From the NCBI RefSeq assembly GCF_014696875.1, contig NZ_JACJQV010000173.1, positions 1 to 48,324 on the forward strand: a stretch of 48,324 bases of DNA. The letters run 5' to 3'. The notes under the pieces were generated by a model. It worked only from the letters and a program-made list of their open reading frames with translations, was not told the origin of the DNA and searched no databases. Of this stretch, positions 32,130 through 41,609 are shown in pieces. Each line of letters opens with the position of its first letter. The first letter of the stretch is position 1. Position numbers and translations under genes: made by a program. Source of the stretch: Microcystis wesenbergii FACHB-1317. GTDB lineage: Bacteria; Cyanobacteriota; Cyanobacteriia; Cyanobacteriales; Microcystaceae.

Positions 32130-33557
32130 ATGAAAAAGTCAGAGATTCAAATTTTCCTAGCTCACGCTAGTGAGGACAAACCAGCAGTTTTGGCACTGCA
32201 TGAGCGCCTTAAGCAAGCGGGATATAAACCTTGGTTGGATAAAAAAGACCTGATTCCGGGCCAGAACTGGCGTTCAGTCATCCCCAAGGCGATCGCAGAT
32301 AGTCAACTGTTTATCGCTTGTCTCTCCCAACGCTCGATTGCTAAACAAGGATTCGTGCAGCCGGAATTTAAAATGGCCCTCAATCAATATGCTGACAGAC
32401 CGCCCAATTCAATCTATCTCATTCCGCTAAGATTGGATGAATGCGATATCCCCGACCTGCGACAGGAGGAGTATGGCTTGAATCTGCGAGACCTCCACTG
32501 GCTTGATTATTGGGAAGAAGACGGATTTGAGCAACTAGAAAGAGCAATTACCTATCAATTCAAGCTTGAACCGGAAGAGCCAAAACAACTGTTATCAGTA
32601 TTTAACTTTGAGGTGGTGGGAGTAAATGCGAAGGGTGAGCAAATTAGAAAAGAGTCGAAACAGTCCCAATATTTCAGGGAAGATCTGGGCAAAGGCATCA
32701 CCTTAGAAATGGTCGCCATTCCGGGGGGAACTTTCCTGATGGGAACAGAAGATGAGGAAATCGAAAGACTGGTTAAAAAATTTAATTGGGAAGGATTTAG
32801 AAGGGAAAGACCACAACATGAAGTAACTGTCCCACCCTTCTTTATGGGTAAATACCCCATCACCCAGGCCCAGTGGAAAGCGATCGCCTCTCGCACGGAT
32901 TTAAAAGTTAAACAAGACCTTGATTTCAACCCAGCCTATTTTAAAGATCCCCCCAAACCCCCCTTAAAAAGGGGGGCTTCCGATTCCCCCCCTTTTGAAG
33001 GGGGGGCTAGGGGGGGATCGCCCACGCACTGGGATAGACCCGTGGAACAAGTCAACTGGTACGATGCGATCGAGTTCTGTGCGAGATTATCAAAACTAAC
33101 GGTTCGGGAATACCGACTACCGAGTGAAGCGGAATGGGAATACGCTTGTCGTGCTGGAACCACCACCCCGTTTTACTTTGGGGAAACCATTACGGGGGAA
33201 TTGGCTAACTACAATGCCAGTAATACCTACGCCGATGAACTGAACGGAGAATATCGAAACGAAACAACTCGCGTGGGACAATTTCCCCCAAACGCCTTTG
33301 GACTGTACGATATGCACGGCAATGTCCGGGAGTGGTGCGCCGATACTTGGCACGATAACTATGACGGTGCGCCGACGGATGGCAGTGTCTGGATAGAAAA
33401 TGGTAATGATAATCGTTCTCCTCTGCGGGGCGGTTCCTGGGGCTACAATCCTACTTACTGCCGTTCCGCGATTCGCTACGACTACTACTTCCGCCGCGTC
33501 AACCGCATCAACAATTACGGTTTTCGGGTAGCCTGCGTTTTCGGGAGAACTCTCTAA
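32130..33557 (+). CDS. TIR domain-FGE domain protein, putative DGR-type variable protein
   Basis: 475 residues. Residues 5-130 are a TIR domain (IFLAHASEDKPAVLALHERL; Glu79 in FVQPEF is the position expected for the NADase glutamate). Residues about 190-475 are an FGE/sulfatase-modifying-factor domain of C-type lectin fold (LEMVAIPGGTFLMG, YRLPSEAEWEYACRAGTTTPF, MHGNVREWC). The C-terminal stretch 438-463, between RGGSW and GFRV, is rich in NNC codons (TAC, GAC, TTC, GTC, AAC, ATC), typical of DGR-diversified tips. A palindromic repeat at 32946-33018 is inserted in frame and adds about 25 residues of PPKPPLKRG type. By family knowledge such proteins sense a ligand and trigger TIR NADase activity; here that is inference. 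Confidence 0.85.
   Translation: MKKSEIQIFLAHASEDKPAVLALHERLKQAGYKPWLDKKDLIPGQNWRSVIPKAIADSQLFIACLSQRSIAKQGFVQPEFKMALNQYADRPPNSIYLIPLRLDECDIPDLRQEEYGLNLRDLHWLDYWEEDGFEQLERAITYQFKLEPEEPKQLLSVFNFEVVGVNAKGEQIRKESKQSQYFREDLGKGITLEMVAIPGGTFLMGTEDEEIERLVKKFNWEGFRRERPQHEVTVPPFFMGKYPITQAQWKAIASRTDLKVKQDLDFNPAYFKDPPKPPLKRGASDSPPFEGGARGGSPTHWDRPVEQVNWYDAIEFCARLSKLTVREYRLPSEAEWEYACRAGTTTPFYFGETITGELANYNASNTYADELNGEYRNETTRVGQFPPNAFGLYDMHGNVREWCADTWHDNYDGAPTDGSVWIENGNDNRSPLRGGSWGYNPTYCRSAIRYDYYFRRVNRINNYGFRVACVFGRTL
32946..33018. repeat. Palindromic G/C-tract repeat inserted in frame within the TIR-FGE gene
   Basis: It begins GATCCCCCC and ends GGGGGGATC, with internal CCCCCC/GGGGGG pairs, so it folds into nested hairpins. 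It is translated as DPPKPPLKRGASDSPPFEGG and a few more residues. The FGE paralogue at 35079 lacks it: LNPSKFSGNNRPVEQV there versus FNPAYFK-insert-DRPVEQV here. A related short copy is at 40803-40836. Confidence 0.85.
33435..33530 (+). other. Putative DGR variable region of the TIR-FGE gene
   Basis: Between the constant TCC TGG and GGT TTT CGG codons, most codons end in C or T and vary in the first two positions: TAC, GAC, TAC, TAC, TTC, GTC, AAC, ATC, AAC, TAC. That is the expected result of adenine-directed changes in AAC-rich template codons. No template repeat is in the window, so this is a pattern-based call. Confidence 0.55.
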
Positions 33558-33714: not shown

Positions 33715-33839
33715 ACACTTTTCCCCTAGTTCCCAAAACTAAACTCTAGGAATTTTTAGCCACTGCTCAAGAGGATGAAGTGAGGGCAGAAAAGAATTTA
33801 AGAGCATGGGTTGTTAGTCAACTAGCTGAAAATAATTAA
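33715..33839 (+). pseudogene. Fragment of Uma2 3' end
   Basis: The last about 40 codons of Uma2 copies C/D (from CTTTTCCCCTAGTTCCCAAA to TAACTAGGG) recur here. One substitution makes an in-frame stop (CTCTAGGAA versus CTCTATGAA). The sequence is a mosaic: GTGAGGGCAG as in copy C, AAAATAATTAACTA as in copy D. It has no 5' part and is non-coding. Confidence 0.85.
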
Positions 33840-34228
33840 CTAGGGTTTGCTGAAAAAGTTTGTTGGTGGGGTTAGGAGTCAGGAGCCGGTCGTCAGGAGT
33901 CAGGAGAATTAAGAATGAGTAATAATTAATTAGATGGTTTATTTAGAGATTTTCTGCCAGTTAATCCGCCTTTTTGACGTTTTTGAATCCTCAAAAATCA
34001 ATTATGCGAGAGGTTTATTGTTACCCATCAAAAAAACAGGGAATCTCAACCGTTAAGTTAACACCAGTGAAGCCTTGCGCCCAAAATTCGAGGCTGTCAA
34101 CATCAGTTAACTTTTATAAACGTCCAGACTAGACTTTCATGGGTTGGGAGTATCATCGAAGTATAAATACTTAGTGATGCCGATTCTCTAGGTTAAAAAA
34201 TAGCCCCAGTCAAGGAGCGGAGGCGACC

Positions 34229-35050
34229 ATGAATGACCTCTATGGCCAAGGCTTTGCGCCAGAAGACTATTTGCTTAACCCTTTAGATAGTCAAGCTTTG
34301 GAGTTAGTTTCCCCAGATTTTACCGAGGTGAATCTGCCGGAAACCGAAAGCGGTTGGCAGGAAATGCCGAATCAAGAGTATTGGAATTGGCAAAATGAGA
34401 CGATGGAGGCCGCTTTCAACTATCAACCTGATGAGTCTTGGCAAGATGTATCCCACTGCCATCAGGATTTTCATTATGAATCGCCAGAAGCTTTAATTAA
34501 TGATATTCCCCATCAAGAATTAGGGTTTACGGGGTTAGGAAATGTGCATTTGTTGGCAGATTTACAAACGGGGCCAACCTGTGGTTACGAAACCATGGAA
34601 AATATTATCCAGTGTTTTCATCCCGACATTACGAATAATTTCTCAGACCAACTGCAAATAGACTATCCCGGTCGAGGAGGTGCTTTAAATCCTGAAGATT
34701 ATCAAGAAATTTTGAGTTCTTATGATATACCCTCCCATTGGGCAAGTTTTGACCATCAGGAATTGGTTAATGCTTTAGATGAGAATCGTCCCGTGGTTTT
34801 TGTCGGGGATGCCCACGATTTAGACCCGATTTCCTATCCCGATTCCCAATCTTGGCACGCGATTACTTTAACCGATGTTAGCCGAAATCTCGATGGTGAC
34901 GTTATTGGTTATCAGGGGATTGATTCTAATTTTCCCTATGAGGAAAAGTTTTGGTCTTGTTCACAAATTGAACAAGCAAATGAGCAGTTGACTGGGGAGG
35001 TTTTAATTACCGATAAACCGGCAGAAGCTTGGCCGTTTAAAACTACTTGA
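34229..35050 (+). CDS. Papain/C39-like cysteine peptidase homologue, putative effector
   Basis: 273 residues. Residues 1-95 are acidic and tryptophan/glutamine-rich and look disordered (SGWQEMPNQEYWNWQNETM). Residues about 105-265 resemble a C39/papain-like fold: the Gln-Cys pair in LQTGPTCGYETMENIIQ (Gln113, Cys118), the histidine in SWHAITLTDV (His210), and an Asp/Asn in GIDSNF (Asp232/Asn234). No signal peptide or ABC transporter gene is close, so bacteriocin processing is unlikely. It has a strong ribosome-binding site and lies 28 bp before the coiled-coil/FGE gene, so the two form an operon. I infer an effector protease paired with a diversified sensor; no exact family was recognised. 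Confidence 0.65.
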   Translation: MNDLYGQGFAPEDYLLNPLDSQALELVSPDFTEVNLPETESGWQEMPNQEYWNWQNETMEAAFNYQPDESWQDVSHCHQDFHYESPEALINDIPHQELGFTGLGNVHLLADLQTGPTCGYETMENIIQCFHPDITNNFSDQLQIDYPGRGGALNPEDYQEILSSYDIPSHWASFDHQELVNALDENRPVVFVGDAHDLDPISYPDSQSWHAITLTDVSRNLDGDVIGYQGIDSNFPYEEKFWSCSQIEQANEQLTGEVLITDKPAEAWPFKTT

Positions 35051-35078
35051 GCAAAGTTGATCTGGGAGAGGAAATCTT

Positions 35079-37466
35079 ATGACTGATGAAATAATGGGAT
35101 TTTATGTTGTTAATGGGGTTATCAATTTAATTAATAGTCAATTGGCGAGACAAGCAACGGAAAAACTGGAAGATAAGCGACAGGAATTTCAAAAATGGCA
35201 ACAATTAAATAATCAGGAATTTCAGCGAGAGCAATTTGAAAAACAGAAGCAATTGCAGAAAGAACTTGCTGAAGATAACCGTCAAACTCAGTTAAAAGTA
35301 GCCCTAGAACAACGAAATACTGCTCGTCAAGTTGTTCAAGATCAGAAATTATTTCAAAACTGGCCTTTGAGAATTGTTCCCGATCAAATTTTGAATGCTA
35401 ATCATGATGAGAATTTACTTTCTCTGAGAATAATTCCCGCACCTCCTGTTATCGATTTTGATCAATTTGGTGGCAACAACAAAAGTTTTCCTAATATTGA
35501 AACTGGTTTAGCGCAAGGATTACGGGAATTTTTTAATCAACATTATTCTTTTCAAAGTACCGAAAGACCGATCGAACTAATTGATGGTGGATGGGATAGT
35601 AAACGCTATCATGGTGGTGCGGCTATTATAGGTCTTTTTGCCTTATTAAAATCTGAACCCATGTTAATTTTAGAGTCACAAATTGATGGGGATTATCTTC
35701 ATCTTAATGTGGGCTATTGGGGAGAAGGACAGCAAAAATATTTTTATCAATCGATTATTTCTAATCTTCCCTATCGAGAAGTTGTCTATGAATCTGTTAA
35801 AATTAGAGCAAGACAATGGCGAGAAAAAAGAGAGCAACTGGCAAAACAATTAAATAAATCTTTGGAGGAAATTGATCGGCAATATGGGAGTGATAATGCC
35901 TTTAATTTGAAAATTTTACAAGACGAAGAAGCTCTCAAGAGTGCGGGAATCGATAGCAGTGATTTAGCGACTCAACCGTATAAAGTTACGGCTAAGGATT
36001 TTGAATATCTCTGTCAGTTTTTAGTCAAATGTCAATCACTGGTAGGCGGTTGGATTGCCGATATTCACTACCTAATTCATCACAATGTCCCGCCCATTTT
36101 GCCTAAGCTTATACCCGATTTAATGCGAGGTATTGATGATCCTAAGTTATTAAAGACTATCGTTTCTGGCTATCGTCAGGTTTATGAGGCTTTAGAAAAT
36201 GAACGCCCCGCTTGGATGCCTGAATTAGCATTAGATTTAGCTGATAGTTTAACTGCTTTGCCTGATAAAAATTGGGCAAGAGAACAGCTAGATTATTCCG
36301 TTAAGTCTTGGTTGCGATTGCGGGGGATAAATCCTCCTAATAATTTAGAGCAAGCGATTAAAGCGATGAAATCTGTTGTTACCGTAGCAGATGAAGTGTA
36401 TTTTAATAAATTACATCACTGTTTGGCAGAACTAGAAAGTCGTCAGCTTGCTACTCAAGTTAAAGGTTTATTGTCAGAACAATTGAGTGCTGAATCTTTT
36501 TACCAACGTAGCATTAAATTGCTGAATTCAGGTCAATTGCAAGAAGCTTTATCGAACCTTAATGCTGCGTTGGAACGTTATCCCAATCATTCTCAACTTA
36601 ACCAACTCCGTCCCCAATTACCTAGTAATGCTCAATTTTTTGATTTTCAAGCTGTCACCGTCGATAGTCGAGGCAAGGAAGTCAAACGGGAAAAGAAACC
36701 AGCGCGGTATTTTACAGAAAACTTAGGCAATGGTGTCACCCTGGAAATGGTCGCTATTCCAGCAGGACAATTCAAGATGGGTTCACCCGATGGACAAGGA
36801 AATGATAACGAACGTCCCCAACATCTAGTGACTGTTCCTGCCTTCTTTATGGGCAAATATCCCATCACTCAGGCCCAGTGGAAAGCAGTGGCCTCCCTGC
36901 CAAAAATTGAACGTGACCTTAGCTTAAATCCTTCTAAGTTCTCTGGCAATAATCGCCCCGTTGAACAAGTCTCTTGGTACGCTGCAGTGGAATTCTGTAT
37001 GCGACTCTCGAAAGCGACGGGACGAGACTATCGCCTCCCCTCGGAAGCGCAGTGGGAATATGCCTGTCGTGCAGGAACCACCACTCCCTTCTATTTCGGG
37101 GAAACCATCACCCCGGATTTAGCCAACTACGACGGCAATTCTATTTATGCTCAGGAACCCAAAGGTGTTTATCGTCAAGAAACCACCCCTGTTGGTAAAT
37201 TTCCCCCCAACGCTTTTGGACTGTACGATATGCACGGGAACGTCTGGGAATGGTGCGCCGATACCTGGCACGATAACTATAAGGATGCGCCGAGGGATGG
37301 CAGTGTCTGGATAAAAAATGGTGATGATAATCGTTCTCCATTGCGGGGCGGTTCTTGGTTAAACAACCCGAATTCCTGCGGTTCCGCTTACCGCGTCAAC
37401 TACGATTGGCACTTCCTCTTCAACAACGGTTTTCGGGTGGTGTGCGGTGCTGGGAGGACTTTGTAG
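35079..37466 (+). CDS. Coiled-coil/FGE domain protein, putative DGR-type variable sensor
   Basis: 795 residues. A hydrophobic N-terminal segment (1-20) is followed by a coiled coil (about 25-95, EKLEDKRQEFQKWQQLNNQEF). A long unrecognised domain (about 100-470) contains ELIDGGWDSKRYHGGAAIIGLFALLKSEPML. A short TPR-like pair (about 470-515, YQRSIKLLNSGQLQEALSNL) leads into a C-terminal FGE domain (about 535-795) closely similar to that of the TIR-FGE protein. The variable stretch is at 761-781 between RGGSW and NNGFRVVC. The long middle domain recurs, as I recall, in cyanobacterial conflict-type proteins, but I cannot name it. It is translated from ATG 35079, 28 bp after the peptidase gene. 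Confidence 0.75.
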   Translation: MTDEIMGFYVVNGVINLINSQLARQATEKLEDKRQEFQKWQQLNNQEFQREQFEKQKQLQKELAEDNRQTQLKVALEQRNTARQVVQDQKLFQNWPLRIVPDQILNANHDENLLSLRIIPAPPVIDFDQFGGNNKSFPNIETGLAQGLREFFNQHYSFQSTERPIELIDGGWDSKRYHGGAAIIGLFALLKSEPMLILESQIDGDYLHLNVGYWGEGQQKYFYQSIISNLPYREVVYESVKIRARQWREKREQLAKQLNKSLEEIDRQYGSDNAFNLKILQDEEALKSAGIDSSDLATQPYKVTAKDFEYLCQFLVKCQSLVGGWIADIHYLIHHNVPPILPKLIPDLMRGIDDPKLLKTIVSGYRQVYEALENERPAWMPELALDLADSLTALPDKNWAREQLDYSVKSWLRLRGINPPNNLEQAIKAMKSVVTVADEVYFNKLHHCLAELESRQLATQVKGLLSEQLSAESFYQRSIKLLNSGQLQEALSNLNAALERYPNHSQLNQLRPQLPSNAQFFDFQAVTVDSRGKEVKREKKPARYFTENLGNGVTLEMVAIPAGQFKMGSPDGQGNDNERPQHLVTVPAFFMGKYPITQAQWKAVASLPKIERDLSLNPSKFSGNNRPVEQVSWYAAVEFCMRLSKATGRDYRLPSEAQWEYACRAGTTTPFYFGETITPDLANYDGNSIYAQEPKGVYRQETTPVGKFPPNAFGLYDMHGNVWEWCADTWHDNYKDAPRDGSVWIKNGDDNRSPLRGGSWLNNPNSCGSAYRVNYDWHFLFNNGFRVVCGAGRTL
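37353..37440 (+). other. Putative DGR variable region of the coiled-coil/FGE gene
   Basis: Between TCT TGG and GGT TTT CGG the codons are TTA AAC AAC CCG AAT TCC ... TAC CGC GTC AAC TAC GAT TGG CAC TTC CTC TTC AAC AAC. NNC codons dominate, as in the other FGE gene, but the two stretches differ strongly while their flanks are nearly identical. TTA and GGT are not explained by adenine changes alone, so different templates or later drift must be assumed. Confidence 0.5.
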
Positions 37467-40557: not shown

Positions 40558-41609
40558 AACACAAACCGAAGAACCATAAAAGGTAAGTCCGGCTGCATAA
40601 ATCTAAAAACCTTGTTGGATCAGATTTTTAGGCTTTTTGGTTTCCAAAAAGTGCCAGGGATTGGATCGCTCGGGGGTAAATTGGCCCTCTTATTCTTGGT
40701 GTGATCTCGCGTAGCGAGCGCGTTGCGACCAGTTTAACTTAAGTAGGTAGGTGTTAAAAATTGTCAGATGCCCTCTTATTCAGGAGGGATTAAGGGGATG
40801 CCGATCCCCCCTTATCAAGGGGGGGCAGGGGGGATCGAACCCAAAATCTATCTTCAATTTAATTAAAACCAGCTACTTATATAGGAGCGATCAATCTTTG
40901 TGTCCTTCCTGTCTTTGTGGTTCGCACCACACCCCCGCCCCCACCAACCAACTTTTTGCTGCAAACCCTAGATAGTTAACAGTTTCCCATCCCCAGTAGC
41001 TAATCTGGATCTTTTGTCGCAGCACATCTGGTCTATTTTGTCAAAAAAACTTTTTCGTTTTAACATAAGTACACATATTTTTGACAAAAGATCTTTTTCG
41101 TCAAAGGGGCAATTGGCAAGTTTTTACTGGGCACGAATTAGTCATCCTAGACGTGGTAAGGGTTTCAAGGTACAAGGAGTAAAAATGCACAGAGTAAGCC
41201 AATTCTTAGATCCTAGCAGCAGGCTGTAACTATTGCAATCTCGTTGACAAATAGGAATTTTTCTCAATTATTTTTTAAGAAAAGTAAAGATGAAGGAATG
41301 TAAATTTAAATCTTCTCAAGTATATTGGGATTTTGATAAATTTTTGTTATACAAAGACCAGTGATCAGATTTGATTTTTCAGTGAACGGTATTAAGTGGG
41401 CAGTCAGCTAAAACCACTCCTATACCCAAGATGGCTGAGGGTTCAGGTAAGGGGCGAAATCGCCGATTATCCCCGATTATTACCGCCGTACTCGCTCTTT
41501 ACCCTCTCCCTAGAGCAATCCCACTTGGAACGGCCAGAAACCGACTGATGTTGCTTACCACTTCCTAGCTACTTTGTCAACACCCTATAGTAGTTTTAGG
41601 TTAATACCT
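40558..41609. other. Repeat-rich gap, no convincing gene
   Basis: 40803-40836 is a palindrome (GATCCCCCC ... GGGGGGATC). 40880-40922 (ACTTATATAGGAGCGATC ... CTTTGTGGTTC) recurs inverted at 47040-47092. 40940-40968 is a one-ended MITE right end (CTTTTTGCTGCAAACCC) followed by TAGATA. 41037-41105 has TTTTGTCAAAAA and TTTTTGACAAAA in inverted orientation. 41523-41590 is the first copy of a 68-bp direct repeat. A 71-codon frame at 41014 has no support. Confidence 0.6.

Follow-up and report, generated by a model that had tools for sequence, protein, structure and literature searches.

The window analysed here, a 48,324-nucleotide stretch of DNA from Microcystis wesenbergii FACHB-1317, carries a gene that couples a TIR effector domain to a domain of the formylglycine-generating enzyme (FGE) family and ends in a variable region, VR1, of the type written by diversity-generating retroelements (DGRs). 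In our best reading, to which we assign a probability of about 0.75, this gene is an orphan DGR target: one receptor variant became fixed, and the allele then spread.

Architecture of the TIR-FGE gene

The gene (32130-33557; on the forward strand, like its domains and VR and the second target gene and VR described below) is a 475-residue open reading frame classed here as a remote target of DGR type. Pfam matches to TIR_2 (residues 8-136; 32151-32537; E 6e-27) and to the FGE/C-type-lectin-fold domain FGE-sulfatase, PF03781 (residues 193-468; 32706-33533; E 1e-54) confirm the TIR-FGE fusion proposed for this interval in the first-pass annotation. VR1 (33432-33530) is the NNC-rich stretch between the RGGSW and GFRV motifs and sits, as in DGR targets, at the C-terminus of the C-type-lectin fold. 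It is followed by a C-terminal tail (33531-33557) of the p1FD4-template type, ending in VFGRTL; an alternative tail type, VVCGAGRTL, is seen in genomes G004 and G011, where the tail after VR1 is of the type found in the second target described below. The two catalytic cysteines of FGE, residues 336 and 341 of the human enzyme, are not both present in an alignment to human FGE: the first aligns with a tyrosine at a variable codon, and the second is kept. The locus is bordered by Uma2-type genes upstream and a class II tRNA synthetase gene downstream.

The TIR domain is akin to defence TIRs in PADLOC (Aga_TIR, 3e-17; ThsB, 2e-4); it resembles anti-phage TIRs, and may hydrolyse NAD or produce a signal on activation. 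Over 32130-32560 the window genome (G000) differs from six full-length orthologues at 86-104 of 431 bases, and these differ mutually by 8-22. The divergent portion spans about 32220-32530, with a DNA difference of 20-24% from the six orthologues; its 3' border is near-identical to the orthologues, as is its 5' border in G007 and G011. A close donor for this core was not found among the 12 genomes, where the best amino-acid identity is 76%. In the window genome the TIR effector segment has thus apparently been replaced, with the sensor part retained. Inside the FGE domain there is also an in-frame insertion (32948-33038; 69 bases net) with C6..G6 inverted repeats, present in G000 and G002 only among eight orthologues; a repeat similar to that of the insertion occurs at 40806-40824.

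DGR-type origin of VR1 and the location of the machinery

The template that matches VR1 was located on plasmid p1FD4 of Microcystis aeruginosa FD4 (NZ_CP046974.1). VR1 differs from it by ten substitutions, all ten at template adenines (hypergeometric P 1.8e-6, 29 of the 96 template bases being A), and the 3' bases GGTTTTCGGGTA are common to both. VR1 has in addition one codon more than the template, seen as a 3-base alignment gap at 33489-33491 whose placement within a repeat is ambiguous; this extra codon counts against the best explanation. The same comparison with three other templates yields 5/18, 7/20 and 12/26 mismatches away from adenine. Another VR of the window genome, on contig C126, has 21 of 21 mismatches to the p1FD4 template at adenines. 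Since all ten mismatches of VR1 fall at adenines of the p1FD4 template, we regard VR1 as of DGR origin, and from the sequences it is almost certain that a DGR wrote it. The proposal of a DGR-type hypervariable C-terminus is thus borne out, together with the expectation of mismatches at template adenines.

A census across the genus points the same way. We initially collected 112 places with the VR frame and, after removal of four templates and five chance matches, retained 103 usable VRs in 12 genomes, 16 of the places being in the window genome. Most have the fixed codons CGT TCC GCN, CGC CGC and GGT TTT CGG, with NNC or NNT at the variable codons. When each VR is compared with the best of five templates, that with the fewest non-A mismatches (a choice that favours the result), 1661 of 1791 mismatches (93%) lie at template A, against 33% expected; with the first four templates only, the count is 1576 of 1932. 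The fifth template is on plasmid p1 of M. aeruginosa NIES-2481 (L263 6001-6880), where the adjoining reverse transcriptase (RT) matches query residues 104-350 only. This NIES-2481 plasmid type is the best template for 79 VRs, followed by p1FD4 (14), G002 (6), G003 (2) and G004 (2). Hence the best-fitting templates of 93 of the 103 VRs are on two plasmids; three of these 93 VRs are themselves carried by p1FD4, and the 93 include VRs of strains in which no DGR RT was found. One window-genome VR, on contig C70, agrees with none of the templates (14 non-A mismatches), and that on C77 duplicates the VR at C165:13453. A decay of VRs after loss of the RT was considered and rejected, as non-A mismatches are no commoner in RT-less genomes (P 0.83). 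On contig C165 (L185 10895-15157) we also observed a 1421-residue reading frame that is still open where the contig stops; it encodes five FGE domains in tandem, and every one of them has its own VR.

These patterns bear on the notion that the gene is an ordinary member of the FGE family, with NNC codons that reflect codon bias and no DGR involved. Genuine FGE enzymes do have parts of the RGGS..GFR frame. The adenine-only mismatches of VR1 and C126, however, and the predominance of adenine across the genus, are incompatible with chance codon bias, and the alignment shows a replacement at the first catalytic cysteine; we give this possibility a negligible chance.

The genome of the window strain is a 5.04-Mb draft assembly, split into 248 contigs and 99.86% complete. 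A search for a DGR RT in it returned no match at E<=1, and the sole RVT_1 match at E<=0.01, which is also the one RT domain that we detected there, is an AbiA-like reverse transcriptase of 649 residues on contig C75 (L019 1036-2985), rejected as a DGR RT on account of this type. No Avd was detected in the draft at E<=0.001. In G011, a complete genome of the same species, we found weak RT matches only, at 31% identity at best, and no Avd. A template of the p1FD4 type is found in neither genome, and 15 VR-like BLAST matches in the window genome (E<=1.7e-4) were discarded as template candidates, none being adenine-rich at the variable codons. The first-pass annotation was hence correct that the window holds neither RT nor template, and neither was found in the remaining assembly; its description of a remote or orphan target is supported by the failure to find RT, Avd or template in the draft. 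It had also held that a genome without RT or template would speak against the DGR idea altogether: this outcome does tell against present activity, but leaves DGR origin standing, since all ten substitutions are accounted for as changes at adenine by a template that another strain has on its plasmid.

Elsewhere in the genus a full-length DGR RT is present in four of the 12 genomes (G002, G003, G004 and G010, the last being FD4), and RT fragments are seen on the G010 chromosome, in G003, in G007 and possibly in G001. The templates of the full-length RTs are adenine-rich copies directly behind the RT. Plasmid p1FD4 carries the RT, two avd genes, the template, FGE targets, a MoxR ATPase and a TIR protein, and one of its FGE targets is part of a vWA-type protein related to SAV_2336. 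The fixed VR1 allele was not found in FD4, where the window TIR domain has a single match at E<=1e-10, to a remnant that contains a stop. On the FD4 chromosome (G010:C1:4485055-4485714) there is a second DGR RT piece, corresponding to residues 1-220, with an Avd gene and a VR as neighbours; in G004 a target similar to that of this piece adjoins a full-length RT accompanied by Avd. A p1FD4-type template with at most three mismatches was recovered from one of 291 genomes sampled from the order, namely FD4, and relatives at 83-89% are on Nostoc and Fischerella plasmids. As for carriage of the template by phages, viral contigs gave no exact match to one pattern and contained two distant RTs only (47% identity). 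For NIES-843, seven RTs are described, all of them group II related (PMC8934634).

One VR1 allele in different species

VR1 is the same to within 0-2 of 99 bases in eight of the 12 genomes (G000, G001, G002, G004, G007, G008, G009 and G011); counted directly, the window genome differs from the seven other carriers by 0, 0, 0, 0, 1, 1 and 2 bases. In all eight the allele occupies the same locus with conserved flanks, the gene being broken in G009, and of nine genomes seen with a gene at this locus only G003 has a differing VR. To place this in context we assembled strict pairs, from different species and with at least 1000 bases upstream at 93% or more and at least 500 downstream at 90% or more; the pair lists include paralogues, stem from 12 genomes only, and the pairs are not independent. 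All 11 strict pairs of the VR1 allele have at most two VR differences; the window genome is outside these 11, its TIR segment and insertion breaking the upstream match. Fourteen further strict pairs have 15-29 differences: 13 come from other loci (15-28), with none of the 13 at two or fewer, and the fourteenth is the VR1 locus itself in G003 versus G011 (29). With a looser filter of 500 bases upstream only, a single one of 147 other cross-species pairs has two or fewer differences and 146 have at least 12. If the 103 VRs are grouped into alleles of the same length with up to three differences, 89 result; besides VR1, two of these are common to different species, each in two genomes, and four more are shared by G000 and G011 only.

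The claim that this is a self-diversifying protein is therefore not supported: the comparison across strains yields no VR1 variation beyond 0-2 of 99 bases in eight genomes, and RT, Avd and template were not found in the assembly. It is very likely that VR1 is not diversifying in this strain. Within the species, four of 13 G000/G011 pairs have at most two differences (0-1), and eight of the other nine are in the C165 tandem array. In the ninth, the VR on contig C117 of the window genome differs by 20 bases from its upstream-matched counterpart in G011, the downstream sequence not matching; judging from this pair, VRs are apparently not all static within the species.

The best control is a second target 3.9 kb downstream, absent from the first-pass annotation: here VR1 is fixed and VR2 is rewritten. 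This gene (35079-37466; 795 residues) has an N-terminal part without a Pfam match and an FGE part that shares 50% identity with the C-terminal portion of the p1FD4 protein of vWA type. Its VR2 (37350-37439) is of another template type and has 6 of 20 mismatches away from A; it is perhaps partly decayed. Upstream of VR2 the window genome and G001 are about 97% alike, and they differ by 27 bases in VR2 versus one in VR1. At the VR2 place G001 has a wholly different VR, with part of the 3' end duplicated. The interval from about 33809 to 37466 is missing from G002, G008 and G009, and the genes that lie between the two targets may have been lost when these targets and flanking repeats recombined.

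G003 has an RT with 99% identity to the p1FD4 enzyme, and its VR at the VR1 locus has 27-29 differences within flanks of 96-98%; this VR fits none of the five templates well (at least five non-A mismatches), which leaves its rewriting by the p1FD4 lineage undemonstrated. G002 and G004, on the other hand, have a DGR RT yet kept the fixed VR1, which counts against the best explanation; their own templates are of other types.

Seven orthologues were compared for site variability, G009 being left out on account of its broken gene. Variable third codon positions number 32 of 195 in 32684-33336 versus 0 of 63 in 33337-33524 (P 1e-4, with the boundary at 33337 chosen after viewing window-wise variability). 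Over 21 pairs, divergence upstream of VR1 falls from 318/7710 (4.1%) at 300-700 bases to 78/4305 (1.8%) at 95-300 and 6/1995 (0.3%) at 0-95 bases. In the 13 pairs from other loci, the corresponding values are 165/4966 (3.3%), 150/2631 (5.7%) and 91/1235 (7.4%), and near divergence exceeds far divergence in ten of the 13, the other three being without a rise toward the VR. The simplest reading of the fall at VR1 would be one recent common tract around it, which implies spread of the allele by recombination; we consider such spread between species probable, though the pairs are not independent and constraint on the DNA is a possible alternative source of the low divergence.

Purifying selection might instead have held the receptor binding site since the species split, without horizontal spread. 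The flanks are indeed syntenic and of ordinary divergence, and VR1 has one variable site in 93 versus 54 in 679 before it (P 0.009). This contrast is lost when VR1 is set against the adjacent 192 bases upstream, where variability is no lower in VR1 (P 0.28), and selection on VR1 alone was accordingly set aside. Selection on the VR1 binding site itself is hence unproven, because its variability is not below that of the preceding 192 bases. Moreover, selection on amino acids does not predict that the deficit extends to third codon positions and to the 95 bases preceding VR1, and we hold this account to be unlikely. Less likely still is that VR1 is the target of an active remote DGR and still diversifying, with the RT and template missed by the draft, for example on an unassembled plasmid. 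The fragmentation of the draft, the plasmid location of the cognate DGR in FD4 and the one same-species pair with different VRs (C117) lend it some colour; it is countered by the completeness of the assembly, in which a search for RT, Avd and template found none of them, by the like absence of RT and Avd from the complete conspecific genome, and by the near-identity of VR1 in eight genomes, along with the other four G000/G011 VR pairs that differ by 0-1 bases.

Proposed history and relation to known systems

Under our preferred reading of a fixed and then spreading orphan target, a DGR of the p1FD4 lineage, borne on a plasmid, would act in trans on a chromosomal receptor that joins a TIR effector to a lectin fold: reverse transcription of the template RNA would introduce errors at adenines, and the resulting cDNA would replace the VR of the TIR-FGE gene. 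Such a plasmid would alter FGE genes of the chromosome and then be lost, with VR1 retained after loss of the machinery and rewriting ended in most of the strains seen. Homologous recombination would then carry the finished VR1 allele, with a few hundred surrounding bases, from one Microcystis species to another. The protein would now be a fixed receptor, in which the FGE fold binds a ligand and the TIR domain signals or depletes NAD; that it is an immune or signalling sensor, as first proposed, is a reasonable expectation.

Several of these elements have precedents. Cyanobacterial DGR targets with TIR domains, remote targets and plasmid-borne DGRs are already published, and fixation of a variant through loss of the machinery has been proposed (PMC7517822). 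The remote variable proteins of that study resemble the present one in their C-terminal CLec/FGE fold, 3'-terminal VR, N-terminal signalling domains including TIR, and location away from the RT, plasmid DGRs being noted as well. Unlike the cases described there, the genome here is one in which no RT or template was found, the template is on another strain's plasmid, and one VR is almost unchanged in eight genomes; Microcystis figures in the main text of that paper in a passage on caspases and in one reference only. The DGR antigen sensors described for multicellular bacteria are likewise CLec sensors with TIR, vWA and MoxR partners, and the parts of p1FD4 resemble those named for ternary conflict systems in the same work, which inferred trans action from non-adenine identity and has one target (DGR 1) that is not variable (PMC10907252). 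In contrast to those sensors, a single TIR-FGE protein is found here, with one VR allele near-identical across species. Plasmid p1FD4 itself is a close counterpart in that it has the type of template that fits VR1, and FGE targets beside its RT, avd, MoxR and TIR genes; it is unlike the window genome in that a complete DGR is on the plasmid. TvpA (2y3c) and Mtd of phage BPP-1 are without a TIR domain, and their DGRs are in their own genomes. Among the papers found in our literature search, of which a part was available as full text, we recognised none that describes a VR allele common to different species.

DGRs are usually studied as ongoing diversifiers, and for the later fate of a useful variant the VR1 locus offers an internal control: within 3.9 kb it has a target that is fixed and another that is rewritten. 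What becomes of DGR variants, and the part of plasmids as travelling templates, can thereby be tested in bloom-forming cyanobacteria. Tentatively, we suggest that mobile, partly plasmid-borne DGRs might serve as passing editors of Microcystis chromosomal receptors, and that the TIR-FGE gene might have been turned from a hypervariable site into a fixed, horizontally spreading allele. If this is true, random diversification would have been turned into inherited innate recognition across the genus.
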